Below are positions 3,001 to 29,493 of a stretch of 64,000 nucleotides of DNA, in pieces. The notes beneath the pieces were generated by a model that had not been told where the DNA came from, searched no databases, and saw nothing but the letters and a program-made list of their open reading frames with translations. Each line of letters begins with the position of its first letter. The stretch's first letter is position 1. The stretch lies in NCBI GenBank assembly GCA_016928975.1, contig JAFGJR010000272.1:1-64000 (forward strand). Reading direction: 5' to 3'. A program made the translations under genes and the position numbers. The DNA is from Sedimentisphaerales bacterium. Lineage in GTDB: Bacteria; Planctomycetota; Phycisphaerae; Sedimentisphaerales; SG8-4.

Positions 3001-3041
3001 TGTCGGAGTCGGAGGTCCGCTACCTCGCCGGCGACCGATAG
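30..3041 (+). CDS. Large secreted mosaic protein (DNRLRE-like, discoidin, LamG modules)
   Basis: A 1003-aa exported protein with no visible catalytic motif. A Sec signal peptide (about residues 1-23, ending AGAQAA) is followed by a DNRLRE/CBM96-like module (about 25-230, with RTGYLRFDLSAL), a fibronectin-like repeat (about 240-330, with YYWRVDEV), an F5/8 type C discoidin-like domain (about 335-490, TASSSDVGVGPENTVNG through YGLSEVRFF), a second fibronectin-like repeat, a carbohydrate-binding-like jelly roll starting at DDFEGYTNESP, and a C-terminal LamG/concanavalin-like domain (about 790-1003). The start has an excellent ribosome site (AAAGGAGGA). Two paralogs lie at 7439 and 10993. The likely role is polysaccharide or surface binding. 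Module names come from motif recognition, not from a profile search. Confidence 0.85.
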   Translation: MVKQLISVVCMGLALAVAAGAQAATMTVGSAADTWVAPNETGTFGAEEYMALQGASVRRTGYLRFDLSALNIIKVESATLTLNVHGAIPKPPYRNDTVVIGRFSLYGLNDVSGNTPQNWDEAALNVAGTGSEVDWTAGTVAVVGGRAVDLDGEVAGITETITNAAAGGYALGTTITVTGDALVGFLQSRVDDGGLVTFLLKNDDATDRGYGICSKEYADEAYRPKLDLTVVIGPKTAASNPSPQDDATDVVRDVVLSWRAGIDAIAHNVYLGTSLADVDSASASVLVSPEQDSDAYDPPGHLAFGQTYYWRVDEVGAPDGTVHPGPIWSFTVEPYSYPITGVTATASSSDVGVGPENTVNGSGLDANDLHSSYDKTMWISGKKATQPTWIEYRFDRTYKLHEMWVWNHNMTTESVVGVGFKDVTIECSINGADWTTLGDFEFTQAPSADGYAHNTTVDFAGAAAQYVRLTPKSNWGDMVEQYGLSEVRFFYVPTQAGEPLPATATAGVDPRTLVLSWRAGREAASHNVLISTDQQAVIEGTAPVLTVDQAICVPSALVLGATHYWKVVEVNRVETPAEWRSDVWSFSTLAYLTVDDFEGYTNESPNRVFQTWIDGMGFSPDEFFPNGGDGNGSGALVGYDPTLGDIMETDIVHGGRQAMPLYYDNTSAPGYSETVRTFATPQDWSLYGITTLVLHFRGDVNNVPAPLYVKINGTKVLYNGGTPSTALAIWKQWNIDLSSVGANLKSVKTLAIGIGDGSGGGTGTIFIDDILLYATAPQVVVATDPGTSGLVALYGMEDNLKDSSGKGNDGTASGNPLFVQGLTGHGKALSFDGTNDYVDLPIGSLLSALNSSTYAAWVYFTNTGNAWQRIFDFGNAGADGASPNVYMFLTTNNGSRIVRFAIRNAASSAEQAVNGPAALSTGWHHVAVVIDSTAMQLRLYQDGTPVASGATNVLPRDLGVTTQNWLGRSQWTADPFLGGSIDDFRIYNRALSESEVRYLAGDR

Positions 3042-7329: not shown

Positions 7330-7438
7330 GAAGCCTGTATAACCTGTGGATTCCTGGAATTCCGGGCGTCGGTCGGGTGACCGCCCGCGGGCCCGTGACT
7401 TGGAATCCGCAATCGGTAATTTCAAGAGGAGGACTGCT

Positions 7439-10400
7439 ATGCACAAGCAAACGCTCTATCTCGCCTGTCTCATCGTGTCGTTCGGCCTGGCCGCCAAGGG
7501 ACAAGCCCTCAAGCCTTTCCAGCAGGATAGCGGGCCAGACGGGATCGTCTCCATGGAAGCGGAGCACTGCGATGACAACTTCGCTCCAGGTGCGAACAAA
7601 TGGGTAGAGGTTGGGCCAACGGGGGGCTTCACCGGTGTCAAAGGCATGCAATGCAACGGCGCAGGGGTCATCAAGGAGGGTTACGCCACCGCGGCCCCGG
7701 GCATGGGCTATCGGATCAACTTCGTCACGACCGGGACGCACTATGTGTGGGTGCGGGCCTACGGCGCCACCGGCAACGACGATTCCTGTCACATGGGCTT
7801 GGACCGTGAGCCGATCGCGACCGGTTTGTGGATGAGCGGCTGGAATGGGATCTATGCGTGGTCCAACAACCGCTCCGGCGGACAGGCCACGTTCGAGATC
7901 CCCAGTCCCGGCACTCACACGGTGAACATCTGGGTGCGTGAGGACGGCCTGATCGTCGACAAGATTGTGGTCACGACGAACCCGGATTATACCCCGGAGG
8001 GGGACGGTCCGCCGGAGAGCCCTCGCGGCGTGCCGGCCAATGCCCTGGGTCCCAATCCGGCCAGCGGCGCGACCGACGTCCCGCGGGACACGATTCTTTC
8101 CTGGAAGCCGGGACCGTATGCCGCGAAGCACGATGTCTACTTCGGCACCGATCGCGACGCCGTCCAGAATGCCGAGAGGACGAGCCCGTCCACTGTGCTG
8201 GTTAGCCTGGGCCAGGACGCCAACACGTACGATCCGCCCGGGTATCTCACGTTCGGGCAGACCTACTACTGGCGCATCGACGAATTCAACGCTCCCCCCG
8301 ACACCAGTATGTTCCGTGGCGGGGTATGGAGCTTCACGGTCGAGCCGTTTTCCTATCCAGTCACAGGCGTGAAGGCCACCGCCTCCAGCATGCACGATGC
8401 GACCATGGGACCGGAGAAGACGGTGGATGGCTCCGGGTTGAACGCCAACGACGAGCACTCGACGATTGGCAGTGATATGTGGCTCAGCAGCGGCGCCGGG
8501 GCCCAACCCACCTGGATCCAATACGAGTTCGAGCGAGTCTCCCGGCTCGACAAGATGTGGGTGTGGAACTCGAACCAGTCGGTGGAAAGCATCTTCGGAA
8601 TGGGAATCAAGAACGCGACGGTCGAGTACTCCACGGATGGCGTCGCTTGGACGCCTCTGGCCGATGTGGAGTTCATCCAGGCGCCGGGGCGCGACGGCTA
8701 CATCCATAACACGACCGTGGACTTCGGTGGTGTGGCGGCCAAGTACGTGAAGATCACCGCCAGGAGCAACTGGGGTGGACCCGCGCAGTATGGCCTCAGC
8801 GAGGTGCGGTTCTTCTCCGTCCCGGTGTATGCAAGTCAACCTCAGCCGGCCTCCGGAAAGGTGGGCGTCGATGTGGACGCGGTATTGAGCTGGCGGGCCG
8901 GGCGGGAGGCGTCGGTGCACAATCTCTACTTCGGCACGGACAGCCAGGCGGTCGCCGACGGCACGGCCCTGGTGGATGTGGTCAGCGAGCACAGCTACGA
9001 TCTGGGTCCGATGGACCTTGGGCTGGGGAACGTATATCACTGGAAGGTTGATGAAGTCAACAAGGTTGAGACCCCCGACGTCTGGGCGGGGAGCCTCTGG
9101 AGCTTCTCTACGCCGGAGTTTCTCGTCGTGGATGATTTCGAGGCTTACACGAATGACTCGCCCAAGCGTGTTTTCCAGACGTGGGTGGATGGTCTCGGCT
9201 TTTCACCGGATGAGTATTTCCTCAATGGCAATCCGGGCAACGACAGCGGCGCGATCGTCGGGTACGATCCGTCGGTAGGCGATGTCATGGAGATGACGAT
9301 CGTGCACGGCGGCATGCAATCGGTGCCCATCGAGTACAACAATGTGAATTCGCCATACTACTCCGAAGCCGAGCGGACTTGGGAGACGCCGCAGGACTGG
9401 ACCGCCCATGGGGCAGAGATCCTGCGGATCTTCTTCCGGGGCAATCCGCTCCGCTTCGAGGACAAAGCCGGCACGATCACCATGAGCGCCGCCGGCGCGG
9501 ACATCTGGTATGCCGCCGACGAGTTCACATTTGCCTGGAAGCCGCTCACTGGAAATGCCACCATTGTCGCCAAAGTGGAGAGCGTCGAGAACACCGATCC
9601 ATGGGCCAAGGCCGGCGTGATGATTCGTGAGAACCTCAGGCCCGATTCGCGGTTTGCCGCCGTCTACGCGACGGCTGGCAATGGCGTTCGCTTCCAGGCG
9701 AGACTGCTCAACGCCGGCTCCGCGACCAGCGATACGTCGGTCGCGACAGATGAGCAGAAGGTCCTGACGGCCCCCGTCTGGATCAAGCTGGAGCGCAACG
9801 GCAACGCGTTCAGCGGCTTCTACTCCACCGACGGCGCCAAGTGGACGGCAATGTCGTGGAATCCCCAGACGATCACGATGGCGGGGACTATCTACATCGG
9901 CCTGGTGGTCACCAGCCACGCAACCGGCGTCGGATGCACCGGGCAGTTCTCCAATGTCTCCATCCCGGGTGTCTCCGGAGCATGGCAGTCTGCGGAGGTC
10001 GGGATCGACCATCTGCTGAACGACCGTGCCAACCTCTACGTGTCCGTGCTGGATGCTGCCGGTCATACGGCCACAGTCACTCACTCGGACCCGGACGCCG
10101 TTCTGCAGGACACGTGGCAGCGATGGGATATCCCGCTGGCCGACTTGCAGAGCGCCGGCGCCAACGTCGCAGCGGTCAAGAAGATGTGCATCGGCGTGGG
10201 CAACCGACAGAGTCCTTCTGCCGGCGGCGCGGGAAGCATCTTCATCGACGATGTCGGCGTGGGCCGTCCCGGTCTGGCCGATCCCGGCAAGGGGGGCCTG
10301 GTGGCTTCCTACGCGTTCGAGAACAATCTCGACGACGGCTCGGGCAATGACCACGCCGGCACAGCGGTCGGCGACCCGAAGTACGTGCAGGGTCCGGCTG

Positions 10401-10918
10401 GCTACGGCACAGCTCTGGAGTTCGATGGTACCGGCGCCCAGTACGTGACGATGGGAACGTTCAATCCCTCCCAGGCGACCGGGCAGCTTACCGTAAGCCT
10501 GTGGGGCAAATGGAACGGGCTCAACGGCCAGTTCCAGGGCCTGATCGCCAAGCGCGACAGCTATCTCGCCAACGACATGATGTGGCACTTCGAGACTCAG
10601 CAAGACACCGGCGTCATCCGGCTGGGTCGCGAAGGGACTGCACAGGTCTCCAGCGAGGCGATGACAGTGGGGCAGTGGGAGCACTGGGCGTTCACGTTCA
10701 ACGGCTCCCAGGCGATCATCTACCGCAACGCCCAGCCCATAGCCAGCGGCGCGTTCTCCTTCGGGACCGATGTCGACGCCGGGCTGTACGTGGGCGCGAC
10801 CTCTCTAACGGACACCGGCGCCGCCAGCAATCCTTTCAATGGCGCGCTGGATGAGATCCGACTGTATAACCGGGCTTTGTCGCCCTTTGAAATCCGCTAC
10901 CTGGCGGGCCAGAGATGA
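7439..10918 (+). CDS. Large secreted mosaic protein (CBM-like, discoidin, LamG modules)
   Basis: 1159 aa. The start at 7439 has AAGAGGAGGA 6 nt upstream and opens a Sec signal (MHKQTLYLACLIVSFGLAAKGQA). Modules in order: a CBM6/malectin-like N-terminal domain (DGIVSMEAEHCDDNF, THYVWVRAYG, about 30-210), a fibronectin-like repeat, a discoidin-like domain (VKATASSMHDATMGPEKTVDG), a second fibronectin-like repeat, a jelly roll starting DDFEAYTNDSPKRVFQTW, an inserted DUF1349/beta-sandwich-like block (DPWAKAGVMIRENL, NGVRFQAR), then a LamG domain (about 950-1159). It is closely related to the proteins at 30 and 10993 but differs in the first module and in the inserted block. No catalytic residues are evident, so glycan binding is inferred. 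Confidence 0.85.
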   Translation: MHKQTLYLACLIVSFGLAAKGQALKPFQQDSGPDGIVSMEAEHCDDNFAPGANKWVEVGPTGGFTGVKGMQCNGAGVIKEGYATAAPGMGYRINFVTTGTHYVWVRAYGATGNDDSCHMGLDREPIATGLWMSGWNGIYAWSNNRSGGQATFEIPSPGTHTVNIWVREDGLIVDKIVVTTNPDYTPEGDGPPESPRGVPANALGPNPASGATDVPRDTILSWKPGPYAAKHDVYFGTDRDAVQNAERTSPSTVLVSLGQDANTYDPPGYLTFGQTYYWRIDEFNAPPDTSMFRGGVWSFTVEPFSYPVTGVKATASSMHDATMGPEKTVDGSGLNANDEHSTIGSDMWLSSGAGAQPTWIQYEFERVSRLDKMWVWNSNQSVESIFGMGIKNATVEYSTDGVAWTPLADVEFIQAPGRDGYIHNTTVDFGGVAAKYVKITARSNWGGPAQYGLSEVRFFSVPVYASQPQPASGKVGVDVDAVLSWRAGREASVHNLYFGTDSQAVADGTALVDVVSEHSYDLGPMDLGLGNVYHWKVDEVNKVETPDVWAGSLWSFSTPEFLVVDDFEAYTNDSPKRVFQTWVDGLGFSPDEYFLNGNPGNDSGAIVGYDPSVGDVMEMTIVHGGMQSVPIEYNNVNSPYYSEAERTWETPQDWTAHGAEILRIFFRGNPLRFEDKAGTITMSAAGADIWYAADEFTFAWKPLTGNATIVAKVESVENTDPWAKAGVMIRENLRPDSRFAAVYATAGNGVRFQARLLNAGSATSDTSVATDEQKVLTAPVWIKLERNGNAFSGFYSTDGAKWTAMSWNPQTITMAGTIYIGLVVTSHATGVGCTGQFSNVSIPGVSGAWQSAEVGIDHLLNDRANLYVSVLDAAGHTATVTHSDPDAVLQDTWQRWDIPLADLQSAGANVAAVKKMCIGVGNRQSPSAGGAGSIFIDDVGVGRPGLADPGKGGLVASYAFENNLDDGSGNDHAGTAVGDPKYVQGPAGYGTALEFDGTGAQYVTMGTFNPSQATGQLTVSLWGKWNGLNGQFQGLIAKRDSYLANDMMWHFETQQDTGVIRLGREGTAQVSSEAMTVGQWEHWAFTFNGSQAIIYRNAQPIASGAFSFGTDVDAGLYVGATSLTDTGAASNPFNGALDEIRLYNRALSPFEIRYLAGQR

Positions 10919-10992: not shown

Positions 10993-13926
10993 ATGTGGAA
11001 GAAACTCACGTTCTTGGCTTCCGTAGGCCTGTTGCTGGCGACGACCGGCAATGCCGCGCCCATTGTCATCACGACCGCGGACGGCAGAGGTGCGGACACG
11101 TATCTTGCGAACGATGGCCAGGGCGGCAACTATGGCCCGACCACCACGCACGGCGCGGACACGTCACTCAGGTCGTTCCGCCAATACGCCAACACACGCT
11201 CCAAGGCGGCTTTCATCAGGTTTGACCTCGGCGATGCAGCCGGGGACATGAGTGGCGCCATCTTGACATTTGACCTGACCTATCAGAAGGGCGGCGGCGG
11301 AGCCGTCAATGTCTATGGGTTGATAGATGGAGACGGTGATTTCTGGGACGAAGAGACGACCAGCTACAATACAGCTCCAGGTGTGATCCCCAATCCACCG
11401 ACCGCTCTTGGCAACTGTGTTCTCGACACGACCAAGTGGACACTGCTGGGGACAATTACGTCTCCTGCCACCCCCAGCACATATCCGCTCCAGTTCAGTT
11501 CGACTCCAGCCAGTCTTCCGCTGGCAGACTTCCTGGAGGCCGATACGAATAAGCTGGTGACGTTCATCTTTCTTGGCGGCGCCAGTGATGAGGGCGAGGT
11601 CGCCTCAAAAGAGCACGCAACGTACAATCCACCTACTCTGACGTTGCCGAACGCCGGTAAAGGAGCGAGGACTTCAGCGATCTACCGGAGTCCGGCCAAT
11701 GAAGCAAACGATGTGTCTCGGGACGCGGTTCTTAGCTGGACGCCGGGGGCCCTTGCCGCCACACACGATGTGTACCTGGGGACTGACTCTGGAGCCGTGA
11801 CCAGCGGCGACGCCAGCGTACTGGTCGGTCCGGGGCAGGATGCCAACACCTACGATCCGCCGGGCCATCTCGAGTTCGGCCGGACGTATTACTGGCGGGT
11901 CGATGAAGTCAATGGCGCACCCGATTTCACCGTGCATCCGGGCAAGGTATGGAGCTTCACGGTCGAGCCCATGGTCCGCGAGGTCGAGGATATCGTTGCC
12001 ACGGCATCGAGCTCCGAGGCGACAGCGGGACCGGAGAACACGGTCAACGGCTCAGGCCTGGACAGCAACGGCCTGCACTCCACACTGGACAAGGCCATGT
12101 GGCTCAGCGCCAGGGGCGGTCCCGAGCCGGTCTGGATTCAGTGCCAGTTCGACCGAGTCTACAAGCTCCAGGAGATGTGGGTCTGGAACTACAACATGAG
12201 TGTCGAGTCCATTCTTGGCCTCGGGTTCAAGGAGGTCACCGTGGAGTACTCCGTCAACGGCGAGGACGACGATTGGAAGATACTGACCGAAGCCGTGTTT
12301 CTCCAGGGGACATCCGCCGACGGCTACGCGCACAACACCACCGTGGATTTCCAGGGCGTTGGCGCCAAGTACGTCAGGCTCACCGCCAAAAGCAATTACG
12401 GCGCGCCGACGAAGCAGTGTGGCTTGAGTGAAGTGAAGTTTTTCTATATCCCAGCCCACGCGACGATGCCCTCGCCTGCCTCCGGCCAGACCGGCGTGAG
12501 TCCGAACGTCGTCCTGAGCTGGCGGGGGGGCCGCGAGGCAGATTCACACGAAGTCTACTTCAGCGCCGATCAGCAGGCCGTGGTCGGCGGCACTGTCCTT
12601 GCCGGCGCCGTCGATCAATGCAGCTTCGATACTGCCTCGCTGAAGCTGGAGGTCGGCAAGACCTACTACTGGAAGGTCGTCGAGGTCAATCAGACGGCCA
12701 CTCCCGATTCTTGGGAAAGCGACCTGTGGAGCTTCTCCACGCAGGAGTTCATCCCGATTGATGACTTCGAGAGCTACTCGAACGAATCGCCCGACCGGGT
12801 CTTCCAAGCGTGGATCGATGGCTGGGGCTTCTCCGGGGACGCTTTCTTCCCGACCGGCAATCCGGGCAACGGCACCGGCTCGATGGTCGGCTACGACCCT
12901 GAGGCGGGCAGCATCATGGAGCTGGCGGTCATCCACGGCGGCGAGCAGTCCATGCCGGTGGAATACAACAACGTCAACCAGCCGTATTACTCCGAGATCG
13001 AGCGGACCTGGGAGACCTCGCAGAACTGGACGCTCAACGGCGCCGATACGCTGCAAGTCTGGTTCCGGGGTAATCCGGTCCGGTTCGTCCAAACCGCGCC
13101 GAATAGTTTCACGATGGGCGCCGGCGGCGCGGACATCTTCGGCACCTCGGATCAGTTCACGTTCACCTACAAGTCGCTCAACGGTGATGGGTCGATCATT
13201 GCCAAGGTGGAGAGCATCGGGGACACCGATCCGTGGGCGAAGGCCGGCGTCATGATTCGCGAGAGCCTGTCGGCGGACTCGCGATTCGCCGGCGTGTATG
13301 CGACGCCGGGCAACGGCGTGCGGTTCCAGGCCCGGAGCATGACGGCCCTCGACGCCACCAGCGACACGAGCGTCGCGACGACCGAGCAGATCGCCTTGCG
13401 GGCCCCGGTCTGGGTGAAGGTGGAACGCATTGGCACCACATTCAACGGCTACTACTCCACCGACGGCGTCAAGTGGACCGCGATGTCGTGGAATCCCCAG
13501 ACGATCGGCATGGGTGGACAGGTCTACGTCGGCCTGGCAGTGACCAGCCATAACGCCAATGCCGCCACGACCGGCGTGTTCGCGAACGTGGCAACCACCG
13601 GCGGCGCGAGCGGGTCCTGGCAGTTCGCGGAGATCGGGATCGATCACCAGTTGAACGATCGTGACAACCTCTACATGATGTTGAAGGATAGTGCCGGACA
13701 CAGTGCTACGGTGGCCAATGCAGACGCGGACGCCGTGCTGCGGGATACCTGGCAAGCGTGGAACATCCCGCTGGCCGATTTCCGCAACGCCGGAGTGAAT
13801 CCCGCGGCCGTCAAGACGATGTCCATCGGCGTCGGCAACCCCGATAAGCCCGCCGCCAGCGGAAGTGGAAGGATCTATATTGATGACATCGGGTATGGCC
13901 GGTCCGCATCAGCCGGCTCGCAATAG
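10993..13926 (+). CDS. Large secreted mosaic protein (DNRLRE-like and discoidin modules, no LamG)
   Basis: 977 aa with a strong ribosome site (AAGGAGGATC) and a Sec signal (MWKKLTFLASVGLLLATTGNA). A DNRLRE-like module (SKAAFIRFDLGDAAGD, about 25-225) precedes the fibronectin-like, discoidin-like, fibronectin-like, DDFESYSNESPDRVFQAW and DUF1349-like (DPWAKAGVMIRESLSADSRFAGVYA) modules seen in the 7439 protein, often nearly identical. It ends with IYIDDIGYGRSASAGSQ and lacks the LamG domain present in both paralogs. Only 74 bp separate it from the gene upstream, so co-transcription is likely. Confidence 0.85.
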   Translation: MWKKLTFLASVGLLLATTGNAAPIVITTADGRGADTYLANDGQGGNYGPTTTHGADTSLRSFRQYANTRSKAAFIRFDLGDAAGDMSGAILTFDLTYQKGGGGAVNVYGLIDGDGDFWDEETTSYNTAPGVIPNPPTALGNCVLDTTKWTLLGTITSPATPSTYPLQFSSTPASLPLADFLEADTNKLVTFIFLGGASDEGEVASKEHATYNPPTLTLPNAGKGARTSAIYRSPANEANDVSRDAVLSWTPGALAATHDVYLGTDSGAVTSGDASVLVGPGQDANTYDPPGHLEFGRTYYWRVDEVNGAPDFTVHPGKVWSFTVEPMVREVEDIVATASSSEATAGPENTVNGSGLDSNGLHSTLDKAMWLSARGGPEPVWIQCQFDRVYKLQEMWVWNYNMSVESILGLGFKEVTVEYSVNGEDDDWKILTEAVFLQGTSADGYAHNTTVDFQGVGAKYVRLTAKSNYGAPTKQCGLSEVKFFYIPAHATMPSPASGQTGVSPNVVLSWRGGREADSHEVYFSADQQAVVGGTVLAGAVDQCSFDTASLKLEVGKTYYWKVVEVNQTATPDSWESDLWSFSTQEFIPIDDFESYSNESPDRVFQAWIDGWGFSGDAFFPTGNPGNGTGSMVGYDPEAGSIMELAVIHGGEQSMPVEYNNVNQPYYSEIERTWETSQNWTLNGADTLQVWFRGNPVRFVQTAPNSFTMGAGGADIFGTSDQFTFTYKSLNGDGSIIAKVESIGDTDPWAKAGVMIRESLSADSRFAGVYATPGNGVRFQARSMTALDATSDTSVATTEQIALRAPVWVKVERIGTTFNGYYSTDGVKWTAMSWNPQTIGMGGQVYVGLAVTSHNANAATTGVFANVATTGGASGSWQFAEIGIDHQLNDRDNLYMMLKDSAGHSATVANADADAVLRDTWQAWNIPLADFRNAGVNPAAVKTMSIGVGNPDKPAASGSGRIYIDDIGYGRSASAGSQ

Positions 13927-17858: not shown

Positions 17859-18039
17859 GTGGAGTTCTGCAAAATGGAAGTTAGGCTTACTTTGGGAAGG
17901 AAAAATCGTCATTTTGATTCTTCCTTCCCCAAAACGGCACGTGCCTGGTGCACGATCGGTTACGTCGATTATTCAAGGAAATCCCCAAGCTGATTTCCCT
18001 GAATAACATAAGCCTGACTTCCATTTTGCAGAACTCCAC
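17859..18039 (-). repeat. Foldback element, copy 2 (181 bp) with 7-bp target duplication
   Basis: Terminal inverted repeats of 31 bp with one mismatch (outer end GTGGAGTTCTGCAAAATGG, inner end TAGGCTTA). CTCATAA is directly repeated at 17852-17858 and 18040-18046, flanking the element exactly. The interior contains a second inverted repeat around TTCAAGGAAATC / GATTTCCCTGAA. The reverse complement matches copy 3 (25403) along most of its interior. No open reading frame is present, so it resembles a MITE or foldback transposon. Confidence 0.85.
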
Positions 18040-21378: not shown

Positions 21379-22572
21379 TCAGTACTTGCCGTGCTCTTGC
21401 GTCAATTCCGCGAGTCTCCTGAGCCTCTCGGGCTTGACGTGGGGCGCGACGCTGCAGGCAGAGGACAAGATGTAACCACTACCGGGCTGGCCGATAGCGA
21501 TCCTGTCCTTGACGGCCCGCTCGAAGGTCGCGTCATCGGCGTGGAGCATTTCGTTGACGGCGTCGAGATTCCCTTTGAAGAAGAACCTCTGTCCGTAGTC
21601 TGCCTTTGCCCGGACCAGATCCACCGTACCCAAGGGTGGCGGGTCCAGCGTGTCGATCCCATCGACCGAGGTCGCCGCCATCAGATCGAGGCGGTCTCCG
21701 ATGGCCCCGCAGGTGTGGACGTAGGCCTTGATGCCGTGACTTCGGATGGCTCGGAAGACCTCGTCCTCGTAAGGTGCGATGTATTCCTTGTACATCGACC
21801 GGCTGATGAATCCCGCGCCGGCGAACGCAGAGCTGACAAGGATCGCGTCGGGCTTGCAGCGAGCGTACAACTGCACCTGGGCCAGCACCATCCGTGTGAA
21901 CATCACCAGGGCCTTGCGACAAACTGCCGGCGCATCGATCAGGGCCATGAGGGCCTGCTCGTAGCCGAACAGCTCCATCAGGTGCGTGAAGGGTGAGAAC
22001 ACCTCCACATGGACCGAGACCTGCGGGGCTTGCTGCAACACCTTCTCCAGGGTACCGGTGAACCATTTCGGGTAAGCGCCGGGATCGCAGAGGTCCGCAT
22101 CCGGCTCGATGCCCCACAGCTCGGGCACGTGCCAGGTGTTCCACACATAGCCAGGCGGTAGAGATGCAAGATTTTGCGTCTCTACATTGATCGTTCGGTA
22201 GTCCGCGCGCGGCAGCCGTGATCCGTCGCTCGCGAACGTCTGCGGATTGTCATCCGGCGGGACTACCGTTTGCAGTCCCGACTTCCAGCACAGATGCTCC
22301 TGGCCTTCGATCTTCCGATAGGACTTGATCTCGCTTCGCCAATCGGCGGGCCGGCCGGGGATGTTCACCAGGATGCCGTCGAATCCGTACCGTCGCTGCA
22401 ATTCCACCAGTGCGGCCGCAAAGGTATCCGGGTCGAACCAGATGTCCGGTGGCCGGGCTTGACAGTGCAGAAAATAGTGGCCCAGCGCTAACTGACACAT
22501 CACCGGGACGCGATCCGGCGCCCGGTGCTCCATTGCTGCCAATACACGCTCTTTCGAGTTCACGACGACCAC
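21379..22572 (-). CDS. Uroporphyrinogen decarboxylase-like methyltransferase (MtaA/CmuA family)
   Basis: About 397 aa from GTG at 22572 (GTG 22563 is possible). The N-terminus NSKERVLAAMEHRAPDRVPV is typical of the URO-D superfamily branch that includes corrinoid methyltransferases; later motifs are SVHVEVFSPFTHLMELFGYE, DAILVSSAFAGAGFISRSMYKEYIAPYE, HTCGAIGDRLDLM and the C-terminal GYILSSACSVAPHVKPERL. The HTCG segment matches the zinc/substrate histidine region of the methyltransferase branch, so methyl transfer is more likely than heme synthesis. Nine codons in the first half (VETQNLASL) are supplied by a 28-bp palindromic repeat read in frame. Genes on both sides are divergent or unrelated. 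Confidence 0.83.
   Translation of the reverse strand: MVVVNSKERVLAAMEHRAPDRVPVMCQLALGHYFLHCQARPPDIWFDPDTFAAALVELQRRYGFDGILVNIPGRPADWRSEIKSYRKIEGQEHLCWKSGLQTVVPPDDNPQTFASDGSRLPRADYRTINVETQNLASLPPGYVWNTWHVPELWGIEPDADLCDPGAYPKWFTGTLEKVLQQAPQVSVHVEVFSPFTHLMELFGYEQALMALIDAPAVCRKALVMFTRMVLAQVQLYARCKPDAILVSSAFAGAGFISRSMYKEYIAPYEDEVFRAIRSHGIKAYVHTCGAIGDRLDLMAATSVDGIDTLDPPPLGTVDLVRAKADYGQRFFFKGNLDAVNEMLHADDATFERAVKDRIAIGQPGSGYILSSACSVAPHVKPERLRRLAELTQEHGKY
22158..22185. repeat. 28-bp palindromic repeat, copy C, inside a coding gene
   Basis: GTAGAGATGC ... GCGTCTCTAC, with a near-perfect palindromic centre (AAGATTTT). On the minus strand it is read as GTA GAG ACG CAA AAT CTT GCA TCT CTA, giving VETQNLASL within the URO-D-like protein without disturbing the frame. 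Confidence 0.85.
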
Positions 22573-22659: not shown

Positions 22660-23646
22660 ATGGGAATTCGCAAATCCAAAGTTCAGTGTGAGCTGTGTCC
22701 GAAAGGCTGCATCATCGCTGTCGGTCAGAGCGGCGAGTGCCGGGTCCGCGTCAACGTGGACGGCGTGCTTCGCTGCGTCGTGTATGGCCACCCCTGCTCT
22801 GTGAACATCGACCCGATGGAGAAAAAACCGCTATTCCATTTCCTGCCGGGCACAACGATCTTGTCTTTGGCGACGGTCGGCTGCAATCTACACTGTAAGA
22901 ACTGTCAGAACTGGGAAATCTCGCAGGCCAATCCGGAGGAGAGCCAGGCGTTTGCCTGTCCCCCGGAGAAGGTGGTGGCGCTGGCCGGTCAGTACAAGTG
23001 CCCCTCCGTCTCATACACGTACACCGAGCCGGTCACGTACTACGAGTACACGTATGATACAGCCCGGCTGGCGCGAAAGGCGGGCCTGCGCAACGTACTG
23101 GTCACCGCCGCCTATATCAATGAAGGGCCATGGCGAAAGCTCCTGGAGCACGTGGACGCCGCCAATATCAACCTCAAGTCGATCTCGGATGCGTTCTACC
23201 GGGACGTATGTTCCGCGACGCTCGAGCCGATTCAGACGGCCCTGGTTGTCGCCAAGTCGATGGGCGTGCTGGTCGAGGTGACCAACCTGATCATCCCGAC
23301 GCTGAACGACAAGCCTGAGGAGATCCAGGAGTTGACTCGTTGGGTGAAGGCGAACATGGGCGCGGAGACCCCGCTGCATTTTTTGGGTTTCTTTCCCATG
23401 TACAAGATGCGGCATCTGCCGCCGACCTCGATCCAGACGCTCGAAATGGCTCGCCATCTGGCCATCGACGAGGGGATGAAGTACGTCTATATCGGAAATG
23501 TACGAAGCGAGAAGGGTCAGAACACCTACTGCCCAAGGTGCAGCAGATTGCTGATCGAGCGGGTCGGCAGCAGCGTCCTGCAGAATCGCATGAAGGACGG
23601 CCGATGCCCGGACTGCGCCCAGGAGATTTACGGAGTGTGGAAATGA
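22660..23646 (+). CDS. amrS: AmmeMemoRadiSam system radical SAM enzyme
   Basis: About 328 aa from ATG 22660 (a TTG at 22639 would add 7 residues). The radical SAM CX3CX2C cluster motif is seen as GCNLHCKNCQNW (about residue 70). An N-terminal CELCPKGC...GECRVR cysteine cluster and a C-terminal zinc-ribbon-like CPRCSRLL...CPDCAQ are also present. SYTYTEPVTYYEY, NVLVTAAYINEGPW and LGFFPMYKMRHLPPTS are strong hallmarks of the AmrS family, which was long confused with pyruvate formate-lyase activating enzymes. Its reaction is unknown. The next two ORFs are tightly linked (ATGA overlap, then a 1-nt gap), and a MEMO-AMMECR1 fusion follows, completing the AmmeMemoRadiSam set. Confidence 0.93.
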   Translation: MGIRKSKVQCELCPKGCIIAVGQSGECRVRVNVDGVLRCVVYGHPCSVNIDPMEKKPLFHFLPGTTILSLATVGCNLHCKNCQNWEISQANPEESQAFACPPEKVVALAGQYKCPSVSYTYTEPVTYYEYTYDTARLARKAGLRNVLVTAAYINEGPWRKLLEHVDAANINLKSISDAFYRDVCSATLEPIQTALVVAKSMGVLVEVTNLIIPTLNDKPEEIQELTRWVKANMGAETPLHFLGFFPMYKMRHLPPTSIQTLEMARHLAIDEGMKYVYIGNVRSEKGQNTYCPRCSRLLIERVGSSVLQNRMKDGRCPDCAQEIYGVWK

Positions 23647-23822
23647 CGCGGAGAGCGCTCATAAGAAGACTGGTTGCCGGCTGCTGGTTGTTCGTTGTTG
23701 GTTGGGGATCACCGATCTGGAACGCGGCAGGGTGGGCTCCGCCCCCTGATTCCCTTGGCACATATCCCGGCAAAGTCGTGCCGATGGGGGACATTGACAC
23801 AGAGGCAAGGTGGAGCGGCTAA
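23643..23822 (+). CDS. Small coupled ORF with signal-like N-terminus
   Basis: 59 aa. Its ATG overlaps the stop of amrS (ATGA) and its stop lies 1 nt before the ATG of the MEMO-AMMECR1 gene, so translational coupling is likely. The N-terminus MTRRALIRRLVAGCWLFVVGW looks like a positively charged export or anchor signal; the rest (PPDSLGTYPGKVVPMGDIDT, ending EARWSG) is short and hydrophilic. Part of the hydrophobic stretch is encoded by an iterated GGTTG/TTGTT-rich sequence, so a repeat-derived artefact is possible. I do not recognise the family. Position within the operon is the main reason to consider it a real gene. Confidence 0.5.
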   Translation: MTRRALIRRLVAGCWLFVVGWGSPIWNAAGWAPPPDSLGTYPGKVVPMGDIDTEARWSG

Positions 23823-23823
23823 T

Positions 23824-25398
23824 ATGAGCACGTGGTTGAGAAGGTCCATTCCGGGTGCGTTCATTCTGTGCGTACTGTTGCTGATGATCTCGTGCAAGAA
23901 GGCGACGCCGGAGACGTCGAGCTCCCCACAGTCTGTCGCCGCCGAGGCCAAAGGCGGCCGGCCGCCGGTCAAGGACGTGATGCGGTCGACGCTGGCCGGC
24001 ACATGGTACAATGCGGACCCTGCGGCGCTGCGAACGGAGATCGCCGGTTACTTCGAGCAGGTGACGATCGACCCTCGCGACGATGTGATCGGCTTGATCC
24101 TGCCGCACGCCGGCTACAAATACTCCGGCCGAACCGCAGCCCACGCCATCCAGTCGCTCGGACGCGAGTACGCCCGCGTTGTCGTCATCGGCCCGACACA
24201 TCGCCTGCCCATGGAGGAGATGCTCAGTGTGCTGCGAGCGACCCACTACCAGTCACCCCTGGGAGAGATTCCGCTCGACGTGGAATTCATCGAGCGGCTC
24301 CTGACGTATCCGATCTTCCGCGACGTCCCGGCCGCTCACAAGGACGAGCACAGCGTTCAAATCGAGGTGCCGTTGCTGCAATACAAGCTCGGCGAGTTCA
24401 AGCTCGTGCCCATCGTTGCAGGGCAGTGCACCTATGAGACGGTCGAGCGGGCCGGCAAGATTCTGGCGAGCCTGATCGACAAGGACACGCTCGTCGTCGC
24501 CAGCTCCGATTTCACGCACTACGGCCCGCAATACGAATACGTCCCATTCAGCAGCGACATCCCGGAGAACCTCAAGAAGCTCGATATGGACGCGTTCGCG
24601 TTCATCTCGAAGAAAGACCCTCGCGGGCTGCTGGAGTACAGGCGCAAGACCGGCGTCACCATCTGTGGTTATGTGCCGATTTCCATCCTGCTCGCCATGC
24701 TCGGCGACACCGCACAGCCCGAACTGGTCGAGTACATCACCTCTGGCGCGCTGATGAACGACTCCACGAACTCGGTCAGCTACGTGTCGGCAGCCATTCA
24801 CGGCGTCTGGCAGCCCGCCGGGCCGCCGGCCGCACAGGCCAGCCCCGGCGCGCTCTCGCAGGAGGACAAGAAGGTCCTCCTGTCGCTCGCTCGCAAGGCG
24901 ATTTCATATGCACTGGACAAGCAGCGTATGCCGGACGTGGCGGACCTCCACATCACGCCCAGCGAGGCAATGAAGGCGCCGCGGGCAGCGTTCGTAACGT
25001 TGAAGAAGCACGGGCAGCTTCGCGGTTGCATCGGCGACATCTTCCCCCAACGGCCCTTGCACAAGTCTGTGATCGCCAACGCGGTTTACGCTGCCTTCGC
25101 GGACCGGCGGTTCCCCCAATTGCAGAAGGACGAGTGCAACCAGATCAGGATCGAGATCTCCGCGCTGACACCTCCGTCGCCGGTGGCATCAGCCCAGGAG
25201 ATTCGCATCGGCACCGACGGCATGGTCCTGAACAAGGATGGTCGCTCGGCCGTGTTCCTGCCGCAGGTGGCGCCGGAACAGGGCTGGGATTTGGAAACGA
25301 CCCTGACGCACCTATCGATGAAGGCGGGCTTGGCCCCCGATGCCTGGAAGCAAGGGGCGAGCTTTCAGGTCTTCCAGGCCGAGGTTTTCGGTGAATAG
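23824..25398 (+). CDS. amrBA: Lipoprotein fusion of MEMO (AmrB) and AMMECR1 (AmrA)
   Basis: 524 aa from ATG 23824. The N-terminus MSTWLRRSIPGAFILCVLLLMISC ends in a lipobox-like LMISC, predicting a lipoprotein and extracytoplasmic location. Residues about 55-330 form a MEMO/AmrB domain: GTWYNADP, LPHAGYKYSGR, IGPTHR, DEHSVQIEVPLLQY, SSDFTHYG and TICGYVPI, which retain the histidines and cysteine aligned with the metal ligands of human MEMO1. Residues about 345-524 form AMMECR1/AmrA with its signature LRGCIGD, then FADRRFPQL and LPQVAPEQGWD. The two proteins are separate in many genomes, and both are usually regarded as cytoplasmic; the predicted export is unusual. Function unknown. A foldback element follows 4 bp after the stop. 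Confidence 0.92.
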   Translation: MSTWLRRSIPGAFILCVLLLMISCKKATPETSSSPQSVAAEAKGGRPPVKDVMRSTLAGTWYNADPAALRTEIAGYFEQVTIDPRDDVIGLILPHAGYKYSGRTAAHAIQSLGREYARVVVIGPTHRLPMEEMLSVLRATHYQSPLGEIPLDVEFIERLLTYPIFRDVPAAHKDEHSVQIEVPLLQYKLGEFKLVPIVAGQCTYETVERAGKILASLIDKDTLVVASSDFTHYGPQYEYVPFSSDIPENLKKLDMDAFAFISKKDPRGLLEYRRKTGVTICGYVPISILLAMLGDTAQPELVEYITSGALMNDSTNSVSYVSAAIHGVWQPAGPPAAQASPGALSQEDKKVLLSLARKAISYALDKQRMPDVADLHITPSEAMKAPRAAFVTLKKHGQLRGCIGDIFPQRPLHKSVIANAVYAAFADRRFPQLQKDECNQIRIEISALTPPSPVASAQEIRIGTDGMVLNKDGRSAVFLPQVAPEQGWDLETTLTHLSMKAGLAPDAWKQGASFQVFQAEVFGE

Positions 25399-25402
25399 CA
25401 GG

Positions 25403-25623
25403 AGTCTCTGCAAAATGGAGATTAGGCTTATATTATTCAAGGAAATCAGCTTTGGGATTTCCTTGAAGAATCACTTGTGTGATGTGCTGCGCACGCCTCA
25501 TCGCGCAACACGCAGCATCGAAAGGGTATGCCTTGAACGCCTTCATCCGCCGTTTCGGAAGGCAGAATCAAGAAAACGATTTTTCCTTCCTCAAGTAAGC
25601 CTAATCTCCATTTTGCAGAGACT
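25403..25623 (+). repeat. Foldback element, copy 3 (221 bp)
   Basis: Perfect 28-bp terminal inverted repeats (outer AGTCTCTGCAAAATGG, inner ATTAGGCTTA). The interior has the nested inverted repeat TTCAAGGAAATC / GATTTCCTTGAA and a CGATTTTTCCTTCC block shared with copy 2 in reverse orientation, plus about 40 bp of extra sequence. No target duplication is visible. It fills the 237-bp gap between the MEMO-AMMECR1 gene and the membrane redox gene and ends 12 bp before the latter's ATG, so it forms the 5' leader of that gene. Confidence 0.85.
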
Positions 25624-25635
25624 TATCGAGCACGA

Positions 25636-28600
25636 ATGAAGTTTGTCCGTGGCTTATTGATCGTCGCATATGGCCTGTTCACCATCGCTGCCCAGACCCT
25701 GTTGTTTCGTGAGTTCGTCACCGCCTTTGAAGGTAACGACATCAGCGTCGGCGTCTTCTTCGGCTCGTGGTTCCTGTGGGTCGGCGCAGGTGCGATGCTC
25801 GTTCGCCGCTGGGGCCGCCTGGCGCAGAGCCTGCTGCATCGCATCGAGCTTCTGTTCCTGGCGTATGTCCCGGCCCTGGCCATTCAACTCCTCCTGATCG
25901 TCCATGTGCGCACGCTGGCCGGCGTCGCCTCGTACGATCTGATGTCCGTGCAGGCCCTGGTCTTCTGGTCGCTGGTCGTCAATGCACCGGTGAGTCTCGT
26001 GACCGGCCTGCTGTTTCCCTTAGCCTGCCGCTGGGTCGAGGAAACACGGGGTCTGGCCATCTCTCGCGTCTACATCCTCGAAGCGGCCGGCAGCTTCCTC
26101 GGCGGCCTCGCCGTGACGGCGCTGTTGGCCCTGCACGTAGAAGCCGTGCAAATCCTCTTCGCGATTACCGTTGCTTTGTCCCTCGTCGTATTCATATCCT
26201 CGTGCGCCGATTCGCGACGCTTTGCGCAGGTTGTCTCTTTGGCTCTTGCTCTGTTGCCCGTTCTCGGCCTGACCACCGGCATTGATCGTTATCTCGCGCA
26301 GCAACTGAGGCTTGTGAAATGGGCGAAGCTGCTTCCGCCGGACGCGTACGGGGGCGCCTTGCAGACGGCGCAGGCGGAGTATCTCTACGGCCAATACCAG
26401 GGCCAGTGGATCGTCGTTCGCGATGGGGCCGCATGCGAGTCGTTGCCGGACGAGGCGGCCGGACAGGCAGCAGCCGTCGCTCTGTGTCAAAAGCCCGATG
26501 CGAAGCGAGTTCTGGTCATTGGCTCGGGTCTCGGACTGTGCAGCCGATTTCTGGCACTGCCGCAGGTCGAGCAGGTTGCCTGGGCGCACGCCGACAGCGA
26601 ATACGTCGCGCGAGTGCCAGGTCGCGTGCCGGAGCAGCTTCGAATTGACGACAACCGCTTTCATCCAATTGTCGAGGAACTGCGGCGATATTTCGCCGGC
26701 ACGCGGGATCGCTTCGATCTGGTTGTCCTGAACCTGCCGGACGTGACGAGCTCGGCCTCCAATCGCTATTTCACGGCCGAGTCCTTTCAGCGGATCAAGG
26801 CGGTGCTGGCGCCCGCCGGCGTGCTCAGTGTGAGCATCGCAGGCGGCGAGAATGTGATGGGCACCGAGCTGGCGGCCCTGGGCGCATCGGTGAGATTGAC
26901 GCTCGAGCGTGTGTTCTCGCGTCTGGTGATCGTCCCGGGGGACGAGACGTGGCTACTCGCCTCGGACTCGCAGAGCCTCACCGGCGACCCGGCGACTCTG
27001 CGGGATCGCTTCGCCGCCATCGAAGGCGCAGAGCAGGTCTTCCCACCAGCCGGACTGCTGTCGGTTTATCTGCCGGACCGCGCAGCGCAGGCGATGGCGA
27101 GTTATGAACAGGTCGATCTGCCTGCCGTGCTGCTGGTTAATCGCGATGCTCATCCGCTGACGCACCTGTATAGTCTCCTCTTGCTGGCGCGCCAGTCCGG
27201 GGCTTCAATAACCCGGCTCATCCGGCTGCTGGCGCTGGGCGGTGCATGGCCCTTTGTGTCGGCCGTTCTGGTTTTCGCCGCACTGCGGGTGTGGGCTATG
27301 ACGAGGCGGCCGGGCGGGCGAGGATCGAGCTTCGACGGCTCGTTCCTGGTGTTCTCCACAGGCTGGATCAGCATCGCCGTCATGATCGTGCTGATGTACC
27401 TTTACGAGACCCGCTTCGGCTCCCTGTACCTCCACGTCGGCGTGATCTCCTCTCTCTTTATGGTCGGCCTGACCCTCGGCGCCGCAATCGTCGAGCGGCT
27501 GATTCAAACGCGTGGGCAGCGTAGTGCGGTAGTGCTCATTGGCCTGATCTCGCTCCACACCTTGGTGCTGTTGGGGGTCGCGGAGGCCGTGCCGCGATGG
27601 GAGGCGGGACACGCGCTATTTGCAGCGACCTTCATCCTCTGTGGTCTGTGCTGTGGCGGCTATTGGCCTCTGGCTGCCGCGCACCTCGCGTTGGCCGGCT
27701 TCCATCCCGGCGAGGCGGGCAGCCGGCTCGAGACCGCAGACCACCTCGGAGCCTGTGTCGGTGGTCTGGCGGCGAGCCTGTTGATGCTTCCCGTACTGGG
27801 GACTGCGACCACGCTGCTGGTGCTCATCGGTGTGCTCCTGGCGAATATTCCCGCCGCCGTGGCAACCTTGTGGAGACACAAGCCTGCCGCCGCAATGCAG
27901 GTCGAGCAGCCGTGGGCAACATATGTGGGATATACTCTCTTTGGCATCGCCGCATGGGTGGTCGTCAGTTCCAACGTATTGACGGCAGCCGCATCCCGCC
28001 TTCAGCCGCATCTGCCTCCGTATGCCGTGCAGACTCTGGCTGGCGGACAGGACACACGGGAACAAGCGGTGACTTCGCCGGACGGCGGCAGTCACGCTCG
28101 CTATTTCGCGATCTCACAGGCCGGCGGATCACCCACTGGATTCATTCTCAGCTCGGCAGACTTCGCCCCTGGCGTCTGGGGCTTTGGCGGAAGAATCAAT
28201 CTGGCGATGCGCATCGACGACAAGGGCACGCTCGTCGATTTCCTGATCGTGCGATCGAACGAGACACCCACGTATCTCGATCTCGTTCGGCCCTGGCTGG
28301 TCGGCCTGAAAGGAAAGGACCTCTTCGTGCCGCAGCCGTTCGTGGGCGTGAACGCCGTCACCGGTGCGACGATCAGTTCCCAGGCGATCCTCGGCGCGTT
28401 GCAGGAATCGTCACGGCAATTTGCGGCGCAGGTGCTGGGCAAGGACATCGCTACGGCAGACGAGAACACCGTCCGGGCCACGTGGCGGCAATACGTGTCG
28501 GACTTGGCTGGCCTCTACCTTCCGGCAGCCTTCGTGACGGCTGTTCTCGTGACGCTGTGGGGCGGGTTCTGGAGCCGGCTGGTCGTGCTGATACTCACGT

Positions 28601-29493
28601 TCGTTGTCGGTGGTCTCGTGCTCAATGCTCAATACTCCAGCGAGCAGATCGTGACGCTGCTTTCCCTTGACGTCCCTGCGGCGAAGTGGACTGGCACGTT
28701 CCTGCTGGTCGTTGGCGTGCCGCTGCTGGTGATTCTCTTCGGCAATCTCTACTGTGGCTATGTGTGTCCCCTGGGTGCCGCACAGGAACTGCTCAGCTAC
28801 CTGTTGCCGCGGCGCTTCAGACCGGCCGTCGAGCACAACCGGATGCGTCCGGCCCGGATCGTGCGGCACGCCGTGCTCTTCACGCTGATCGTGGTGTTCT
28901 TCCTGTCCCGCCACCGGACGGCCCTCTCAGGCGATCCACTGATTCGTATCTTCAGTCTCCAGGCTTTGATGGACCCGGCTGTGCCTTCCTGGATGTGGAT
29001 CGTCATGGCCGTGGTCTTGGTCGGCTCGCTGTTCATCGTTCGCTTCTGGTGCCGATACCTCTGTCCGACAGGGGCCTTCCTGTCGCTGCTGAATCATCTC
29101 ACGTTGCTGAAGCGGTGGCTGCCGGCCAAACGCTTTGGTCGCTGCGAATTTGGCGTGACTGCGAGCGAGCACATTGACTGCATTCACTGCGATCGTTGCC
29201 GGTATCCGGTGGTGAAGGATGGAGACGCGAGATCTTGCGTCTCTATGATAGGGGCCTCGCCGCATCCATTCCTCCTGGCCGTGGTGGTCGCGGGTGTGGT
29301 CATGGCGGGCGTGTCCATCCGCCAGTTCCGCCGGGTGATGCCGGTCGTGCTGGAGGGCCCCGCTGCAACAGTCGGCGCCGCGGGCCAGCCCAGGGACGTG
29401 GACCTGCAACGGATCCGTACCCTGATCGAGCAGGGAGGGCTGTCCGATAGGGAGGCGGAGCACTACAAGAAGCTCGACGAGACCGGCCCATAG
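25636..29493 (+). CDS. Membrane fusion: spermidine synthase-like, FMN-binding and NosR/NapH-like Fe-S modules
   Basis: 1285 aa. N-terminal membrane segments (MKFVRGLLIVAYGLFTIAAQ, LFFREF-like) resemble fused MFS/spermidine synthase proteins; a Rossmann-like block at about 270-440 has RVLVIGSGLGLCSRFL and RFDLVVLNLPD. More membrane helices follow (about 530-790). About residues 850-930 form an FMN-binding domain ending VNAVTGATISSQAILGAL, whose TGAT threonine is the usual site of covalent FMN attachment by ApbE. The C-terminal third is NosR/NapH-like: LYCGYVCPLGA (about 1036), CRYLCPTGAF (about 1138) and CEFGVTASEHIDCIHCDRC (about 1171-1189). Residues about 1196-1204 come from a palindromic repeat. 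Electron transfer across the membrane is the inferred role. The putative aminopropyl-transfer site is not verifiable, and no strong ribosome site precedes the ATG. Confidence 0.85.
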   Translation: MKFVRGLLIVAYGLFTIAAQTLLFREFVTAFEGNDISVGVFFGSWFLWVGAGAMLVRRWGRLAQSLLHRIELLFLAYVPALAIQLLLIVHVRTLAGVASYDLMSVQALVFWSLVVNAPVSLVTGLLFPLACRWVEETRGLAISRVYILEAAGSFLGGLAVTALLALHVEAVQILFAITVALSLVVFISSCADSRRFAQVVSLALALLPVLGLTTGIDRYLAQQLRLVKWAKLLPPDAYGGALQTAQAEYLYGQYQGQWIVVRDGAACESLPDEAAGQAAAVALCQKPDAKRVLVIGSGLGLCSRFLALPQVEQVAWAHADSEYVARVPGRVPEQLRIDDNRFHPIVEELRRYFAGTRDRFDLVVLNLPDVTSSASNRYFTAESFQRIKAVLAPAGVLSVSIAGGENVMGTELAALGASVRLTLERVFSRLVIVPGDETWLLASDSQSLTGDPATLRDRFAAIEGAEQVFPPAGLLSVYLPDRAAQAMASYEQVDLPAVLLVNRDAHPLTHLYSLLLLARQSGASITRLIRLLALGGAWPFVSAVLVFAALRVWAMTRRPGGRGSSFDGSFLVFSTGWISIAVMIVLMYLYETRFGSLYLHVGVISSLFMVGLTLGAAIVERLIQTRGQRSAVVLIGLISLHTLVLLGVAEAVPRWEAGHALFAATFILCGLCCGGYWPLAAAHLALAGFHPGEAGSRLETADHLGACVGGLAASLLMLPVLGTATTLLVLIGVLLANIPAAVATLWRHKPAAAMQVEQPWATYVGYTLFGIAAWVVVSSNVLTAAASRLQPHLPPYAVQTLAGGQDTREQAVTSPDGGSHARYFAISQAGGSPTGFILSSADFAPGVWGFGGRINLAMRIDDKGTLVDFLIVRSNETPTYLDLVRPWLVGLKGKDLFVPQPFVGVNAVTGATISSQAILGALQESSRQFAAQVLGKDIATADENTVRATWRQYVSDLAGLYLPAAFVTAVLVTLWGGFWSRLVVLILTFVVGGLVLNAQYSSEQIVTLLSLDVPAAKWTGTFLLVVGVPLLVILFGNLYCGYVCPLGAAQELLSYLLPRRFRPAVEHNRMRPARIVRHAVLFTLIVVFFLSRHRTALSGDPLIRIFSLQALMDPAVPSWMWIVMAVVLVGSLFIVRFWCRYLCPTGAFLSLLNHLTLLKRWLPAKRFGRCEFGVTASEHIDCIHCDRCRYPVVKDGDARSCVSMIGASPHPFLLAVVVAGVVMAGVSIRQFRRVMPVVLEGPAATVGAAGQPRDVDLQRIRTLIEQGGLSDREAEHYKKLDETGP
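29219..29246. repeat. 28-bp palindromic repeat, copy D, inside a coding gene
   Basis: GGAGACGCGAGATCTTGCGT followed by CTCT. It is read in frame on the plus strand as GDARSCVSM just after the last cysteine cluster (CIHCDRCRYP) of the membrane flavin/Fe-S protein, leaving the frame open into the final membrane helix. Confidence 0.85.

Follow-up and report, generated by a model that had tools for sequence, protein, structure and literature searches.

A putative envelope-located AmmeMemoRadiSam locus in a Sedimentisphaerales bacterium: exported MEMO-AMMECR1 fusion, Tat-associated AmrS and a linked flavin/Fe-S membrane protein

Can a radical S-adenosylmethionine (SAM) enzyme work outside the cytoplasmic membrane? 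Radical SAM chemistry is regarded as cytosolic because of its need for SAM and a strong reductant, and a cytoplasmic location is also the usual assumption for the AmmeMemoRadiSam system, outside its NCBIfam definition. The question is raised by four genes within positions 1 to 64,000 of contig JAFGJR010000272.1 (assembly GCA_016928975.1, Sedimentisphaerales bacterium), the whole stretch analysed here and referred to as the window. These genes encode the radical SAM enzyme AmrS, a 59-residue protein, a MEMO-AMMECR1 fusion and a large membrane protein (coordinates are given in Table 1). A sequence-only reading of the window had listed the same gene set, including the lipobox of the fusion, and we find all four genes where it placed them and its domain calls correct. 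On balance, we think that the locus probably encodes an envelope-located version of AmmeMemoRadiSam, in which the twin-arginine translocation (Tat) pathway would export folded AmrS and the membrane protein would give it electrons. The outline of the sequence-only reading, an exported fusion with a linked membrane protein, is thereby retained; what it missed is that the enzyme itself is probably outside as well. Our case is built from location signals, linkage, exclusivity and the conservation of metal and cluster ligands, from which we infer the crossing of AmrS, the electron route and the handling of SAM or its products by the membrane protein.

All three AmmeMemoRadiSam proteins score above their NCBIfam cut-offs; for the MEMO part of the fusion (protein B) TIGR04336 gives 223.7 bits against 26, and for the AMMECR1 part (protein A) TIGR04335 gives 178.3 bits against 99. 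Unlike in the known system, MEMO and AMMECR1 are here fused and exported, AmrS is tied to a Tat signal and there is a dedicated membrane partner. The N-terminus of the fusion reads MSTWLRRSIPGAFILCVLLLMISC(24)KK, with the lipobox MISC and Cys24, so that by pattern the protein departs from the usual cytoplasmic location; the MEMO domain follows at residues 55-323 and AMMECR1 at 354-522, with an RGCIG segment at 400-404. Export was assessed by hydropathy and lipobox patterns in a set made up of the fusion P0003 and the best 119 of its 3409 hits. A hydrophobic N-terminal stretch is present in 109 of these 120 fusions, 57 of which carry a lipobox-like Cys, and the export claimed by the sequence-only reading is borne out by these patterns. 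Most of the remaining 11 are short or lack their 5' end; the signal of P0093 is weaker and looks cleavable, and none is seen for P0105 in the given frame. Lipoprotein and anchor forms alternate among the relatives, as expected if selection acts on location and not on one sequence. Export of the fusion and its anchoring outside are thus predicted with good support. Cytosolic flags on L005, L083, L084 and L090/L102 were dismissed, since the signal is weak, the contig truncated or the start misplaced in these cases. In locus L034, a lipoprotein-signal-like stretch (L034:9850-9990) lies just upstream of the fusion, separated from it by a stop codon.

H49, H81 and C244 are the iron ligands of human MEMO1 according to PMC11081632. 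The corresponding positions of the fusion, H95, H126 and C281, are invariant in 30 aligned sequences, and in the same alignment the RGCIG segment varies at I403 only.

The window AmrS itself contains the motif CNLHCKNC and begins directly ahead of a CELCP motif; it lacks an export signal. Such a signal is found in the adjoining small protein, which belongs to a conserved, unannotated family of about 50-75 residues encoded between amrS and the fusion. Its members start with M-[TK]RR-x-F..., continue through a segment of moderate hydrophobicity and a basic linker to YPG-x-V-x-PL..., and end in W-[SA]-G. The twin arginine is invariant in 15 chosen members, which by sequence have an S/T-RR-x-F-L-type Tat motif. 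To place the family we used the best 80 of 409 loci from one genome-collection scan, titled Planctomycetota, Hydrogenedentota, Lentisphaerota, Kiritimatiellota, Verrucomicrobiota, Spirochaetota, Nitrospirota, Pseudomonadota and others; since nearly all are titled as metagenome-assembled, individual titles may be wrong. A profile built from 10 members and iterated on the same 80 loci, so that seed E-values are not independent, matches 50 of the 80 loci and the window, and reading the gap between amrS and the fusion revealed 7 further diverged ORFs (open reading frames) that the profile missed (in 6 full loci and L074). Every one of the 54 loci in which amrS, the fusion and the membrane protein occur together carries a Tat signal: on a small ORF found by profile in 47, on one found by eye in 6 and on AmrS in L079. 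In the genomes of L029, L035, L037 and, weakly, L047, the pair of window-type AmrS and small ORF is kept apart from the fusion. The ratio of nonsynonymous to synonymous change is 0.05-0.43 for the small ORF in 12 pairs of relatives, for which AmrS gives 0.07-0.15; a number of the synonymous distances are close to saturation. A chance ORF is therefore ruled out by the conserved family and purifying selection. Searches of 15 members against Pfam and NCBIfam returned nothing convincing beyond Tat models; the family resembles TIGR02811 (formate dehydrogenase region TAT target) in being a small Tat-signal protein and differs from it in that none of the 15 matches that model. In L071, L072 and L074 (titled Gammaproteobacteria), a C-terminal LHEADFY-x-PHDL-x-G replaces W-x-G.

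A second arrangement places the Tat signal on the enzyme. It came to light through weaker membrane-protein matches in 150 genomes belonging to the same class as the L010 genome, and combines an exported fusion with a spermidine-synthase-like membrane protein of roughly 730-920 residues and an AmrS whose N-terminus bears a Tat signal. This signal is kept in 116 of 120 relatives (one query and its 119 best hits, hence close relatives and not a sample of all AmrS), the other 4 seeming either to have been narrowly missed or to have their start set too late; the Pfam model TAT_signal scores above cut-off in 2 of 6 tested. In a structure model of the Tat-bearing AmrS the signal is poorly ordered and order begins at about residue 50, ahead of the first Cys motif, while window-type AmrS begins right after the segment that is ordered in this model. 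The closest solved fold is pyruvate formate-lyase activase (PFL-AE, 3c8f; E 1.1e-13), a glycyl-radical enzyme activase; unlike in those systems, no glycyl-radical enzyme is found among the conserved neighbours of these loci.

The same 150 genomes served as a control for location. They hold 101 AmrS genes above cut-off (102 rows, one gene appearing twice), of which 88 regions were examined and 13 left out. Tat association was seen for 15 of the 88, through a signal on AmrS in 12 and through a small ORF in 3. Twelve of these 15 lie at most 5 kb from a fusion; 11 of the fusions are exported and the twelfth, in L083, is truncated by the start of its contig. An exported fusion at this distance was seen for none of the remaining 73, many of which have no MEMO at all in the stretch. 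Across 151 AmrS rows, a few regions being represented twice, 58 have the small ORF only, 16 have Tat on AmrS only, 77 have neither and none has both. In a tree of 144 rows the small-ORF and Tat types fall into one clade (support 86), apart from 76 of 77 others; the window lies within a small-ORF set (support 99) and three changes account for all labels. Regular-expression Tat calls on L119 and L160 proved false, their positions lying inside the AmrS core. Genomes G001, G005 and G130, which have the exported system, also contain a separate MEMO frame about 300 residues long and a second AmrS without a Tat signal, and inside and outside versions may thus coexist in them.

Taken together, these data strongly suggest, at the level of sequence, that AmrS is translocated across the membrane. 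In the window, signal-less AmrS would travel as the passenger of a hitchhiker pair, its carrier being the small Tat protein whose gene follows immediately; AmrS of the sister lineage bears the signal itself. Hydrogenases are an example of Tat hitchhiker pairs. In such export a heterodimer is carried by a signal on one partner, as described in PMC10924467. The present case is alike in that the signal is on one partner and an Fe-S enzyme is the other, and differs in that the signal partner is only about 60 residues long. We know of no radical SAM passenger in a pair of this kind.

The small protein could instead be the substrate: cytoplasmic AmrS would modify its W-x-Gly, and the product would be exported through Tat to serve MEMO-AMMECR1 as a redox cofactor or radical site carried on a peptide. 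A C-terminal Gly in all 58 collected small proteins (51 profile rows and 7 by eye) and W-x-Gly in 54 of them agree with this, as do the position of the small gene directly behind a radical SAM gene and its position beside the fusion in L034 and L050. The sister lineage argues in the other direction, since Tat is there on AmrS itself and the neighbourhood of amrS yielded no small ORF; nor does the small protein have a family match beyond Tat models. We regard this alternative as rather unlikely and favour export of AmrS.

The fourth gene had been proposed by the sequence-only reading as a linked partner, and the wider survey confirms it. In 62 fusion entries on contigs of at least 7 kb, 23 equal a membrane-protein entry in exact longest-contig size (best 120 entries per list). 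In the 80 loci the four genes recur in the order seen in the window, from amrS through the small ORF and the fusion to the membrane protein, and adjacent genes often overlap by 4 bp. Clustering places the membrane family in 58 of the 80 and AmrS in 55 (59 by direct search), the next most frequent neighbour family being found in 12. While 54 loci have amrS, fusion and membrane protein and 17 have the fusion alone, L018, L043, L049 and L066 have the membrane protein and no amrS within the stretch covered, L008 and L074 have amrS and no membrane protein within the stretch covered, and in L070, L073 and L080 a signal-less fusion lies directly beside amrS with neither Tat ORF nor membrane partner. 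Scattered genes were then considered in 20 genomes (those of L070, L073, L080 and the 17 fusion-alone loci), with L075 omitted because its genome also has the exported locus L038. The membrane partner was found elsewhere in 8 of the 10 genomes whose fusion is exported (L029, L032, L034, L035, L037, L047, L050, L060, L061, L063) and in 0 of 9 with cytosolic fusions only (one-sided Fisher ~0.0006, worked by hand). These calls vary in quality: the L034 fusion signal is cut off by a stop and that of L060 is weak, the partner in the L034 genome is a contig-edge piece and that in the L032 genome a short form beside a Tat-bearing AmrS, and the L073 genome has only a 285-residue frame with a weak synthase-domain match.

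These results bear on whether the neighbourhood is a chance one, with the membrane protein an ordinary polyamine or transport gene. Its spermidine-synthase-like domain and major facilitator superfamily (MFS) fold would suit such a role, but the family stands near the fusion in 58 of the 80 loci, occurs in several gene orders and tracks exported fusions even when non-adjacent. An unlinked neighbour is thereby ruled out as a candidate, a chance association is extremely improbable, and linkage of the membrane protein to the exported system is well supported.

What could this partner contribute? Its FMN_bind domain (FMN, flavin mononucleotide) lies at residues 849-924 (PF04205, 37 bits against a cut-off of 22) with VTGATISS at 908-915, including VTGAT at 908-912; G910, A911 and T912 of the flavinylation motif [ST]GA[TS] are invariant in 21 rows. 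The NosR/NapH-type part has two Fer4_5 stretches, two CX3CP motifs and CX11CX2CX2C. Scores for NosR NF046105 (37 bits against 1000) and NapH/MauN TIGR02163 (46 against 213) are below cut-off, and from its sequence this part is best described as one that works like NosR and is not a family member. Residues 1-790, which the sequence-only reading had passed over along with the twin-arginine motif of the 59-residue ORF and the palindromic element described below, form an MFS-like fold of two six-helix halves with an inserted spermidine-synthase-like domain (PF01564 at residues 280-398). speE TIGR00417 reaches 31 bits against a cut-off of 250, and the catalytic loop reads VLNLPDVT compared with IIDLTDPV in the solved enzyme, where the Asp of the loop has the catalytic role. 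The positive-inside rule puts this domain on the outer side of the membrane. Among genomes of related loci, as distinct from the window genome, ApbE is present in 7 of 8 and 34 of 36, and TatC is present in 23 of 24 genomes of related loci. Near the synthase-like membrane protein of Tat-AmrS genomes, L085:3655-7115 and L089:7188-12099 hold a NosR/NapH-like polyferredoxin and DUF6599, and L085 a DUF362 protein as well.

FMN_bind with VTGAT and a NapH/NosR-like Fe-S membrane part are shared with flavinylated NosR/RnfG-type electron conduits (PMC8238504, PMC11334425); the fusion to an MFS and spermidine-synthase-like domain sets the present protein apart. The main texts of both papers contain no AMMECR1, Memo, spermidine, spermine, radical SAM or Planctomycet.

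The electron acceptor had been taken to be MEMO-AMMECR1. In that version only the fusion would leave the cytoplasm and have its MEMO iron site reduced by the FMN/Fe-S protein, and AmrS would stay inside and act on the chain before export. The invariant MEMO iron-ligand positions, a topology that puts the FMN domain and the fusion on one side, and the signal-less AmrS of the window all fit. However, as a general principle a chain exported by Sec is unfolded when it would meet AmrS, and the Tat signal that accompanies AmrS is left unexplained. We consider this version quite improbable. Since the Tat signal goes with AmrS, on the adjacent small protein or on its own N-terminus, AmrS itself is the likelier acceptor.

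With AmrS placed outside, a sequence of steps can be proposed. Export of the fusion by Sec would come first and is well supported, the protein staying outside on a lipid anchor or on a helix that is not cleaved; AmrS, folded with its Fe-S clusters, would pass through Tat, as strongly suggested above. Electrons might then run from inside via the NosR/NapH-type Fe-S part to covalent FMN outside and on to the [4Fe-4S] cluster of AmrS, the membrane conduit replacing cytosolic flavodoxin. More speculatively, the MFS/spermidine-synthase-like part might move or hold SAM or its products. AmrS would finally carry out a radical modification on or with MEMO-AMMECR1; the first candidates are a radical modification of AMMECR1 or joint chemistry with the MEMO iron, given that AmrS resembles glycyl-radical activases and that RGCIG is conserved. 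The full version, a complete radical SAM pathway outside in which the Tat-exported enzyme, the flavinylated conduit, SAM supplied via the MFS/extracytoplasmic synthase-like domain and the anchored fusion as target all take part, we put forward tentatively, as somewhat doubtful.

Several observations weigh against this reading. To our knowledge extracytoplasmic SAM has no known source. The Tat calls find limited echo in family models: TIGR01409 matches 5 and PF10518 2 of 15 small proteins at a lax threshold, the window member matching neither, and five Tat-bearing AmrS gave no general Tat model in NCBIfam and one weak TAT-target match (TIGR02811 to the N-terminus of P0247, 18.9 bits, under the cut-off of 48, in 1 of 5 tested). 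Profile comparison of the small proteins with the Tat-AmrS N-termini aligns the Tat stretch alone, so the idea of a detached signal rests on exclusivity and the tree; the AmrS clade in turn comes from a quick method with a midpoint root and long branches, and contains the cytosolic long-branch L080. Exceptions to the association also occur. The Tat-bearing AmrS of L147, L153 and L156 has no MEMO or AMMECR1 within 5 kb, the small ORF of L034 and L050 adjoins the fusion and not amrS, and in the L060 genome, with its weak-signal exported fusion, the profile finds no small ORF in the amrS stretch. The genome search found no membrane partner for the exported fusions of L061 and L063, and the partners of L010, L031, L038, L052, L064, L069 and L079 are without FMN, the NosR part or both. 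In L069, a record titled as the complete genome of Lentisphaerota strain zth2 (CP071032.1), FMN is present and the NosR part is missing.

If true, radical SAM chemistry carried out by an enzyme outside the membrane, served by a dedicated electron supply, would break the cytosolic rule, and the role of AmrS, MEMO and AMMECR1, of which MEMO1 and AMMECR1 have human relatives, would become testable in a compact four-gene operon. Titles and abstract beginnings in the open-access literature gave no report of an exported, secreted, extracytoplasmic or Tat-linked radical SAM enzyme, which is no proof that none exists, and no functional study of the three-gene AmmeMemoRadiSam system.

Table 1. Positions of the four genes and of other features in the window
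Feature	Position	Strand	Description
amrS, radical SAM enzyme (AmmeMemoRadiSam type), 328 aa	22660-23646	+	TIGR04337 360.5 bits against cut-off 220
Small protein, 59 aa, MTRRALIRR... to ARWSG end	23643-23822	+	twin-arginine motif; start inside amrS stop codon
MEMO-AMMECR1 fusion, 524 aa, exported form (predicted)	23824-25398	+	PF01875 187 bits, PF01871 176 bits
Palindromic MITE-like repeat, 221 bp	25403-25623		28-nt arms 100% complementary; strong predicted fold
Membrane protein, 1285 aa	25636-29493	+	MFS-like and spermidine-synthase-like (1-790), FMN_bind, NosR/NapH-type part
Second copy of the palindromic MITE-like element	17859-18039		
URO-D/MtaA-like protein	21379-22572	-	divergent from amrS
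Large secreted-looking protein	30-3041		
Large secreted-looking protein	7346-10918		
Large secreted-looking protein	10993-13926		

The gap of 237 bp between the fusion and membrane-protein genes of the window is nearly filled by the palindromic element, which resembles a miniature inverted-repeat transposable element (MITE), where many relatives have a 4-bp overlap instead. A second copy lies elsewhere in the window, the copies being about 180-220 bp long, and comparison with a plasmid collection gave no match. The element is likely an insertion that stands outside the system. The URO-D/MtaA-like protein upstream of amrS has no relative in the 80 loci. Farther upstream, the genes for the three large secreted-looking proteins share repeats with 69-83% DNA identity.

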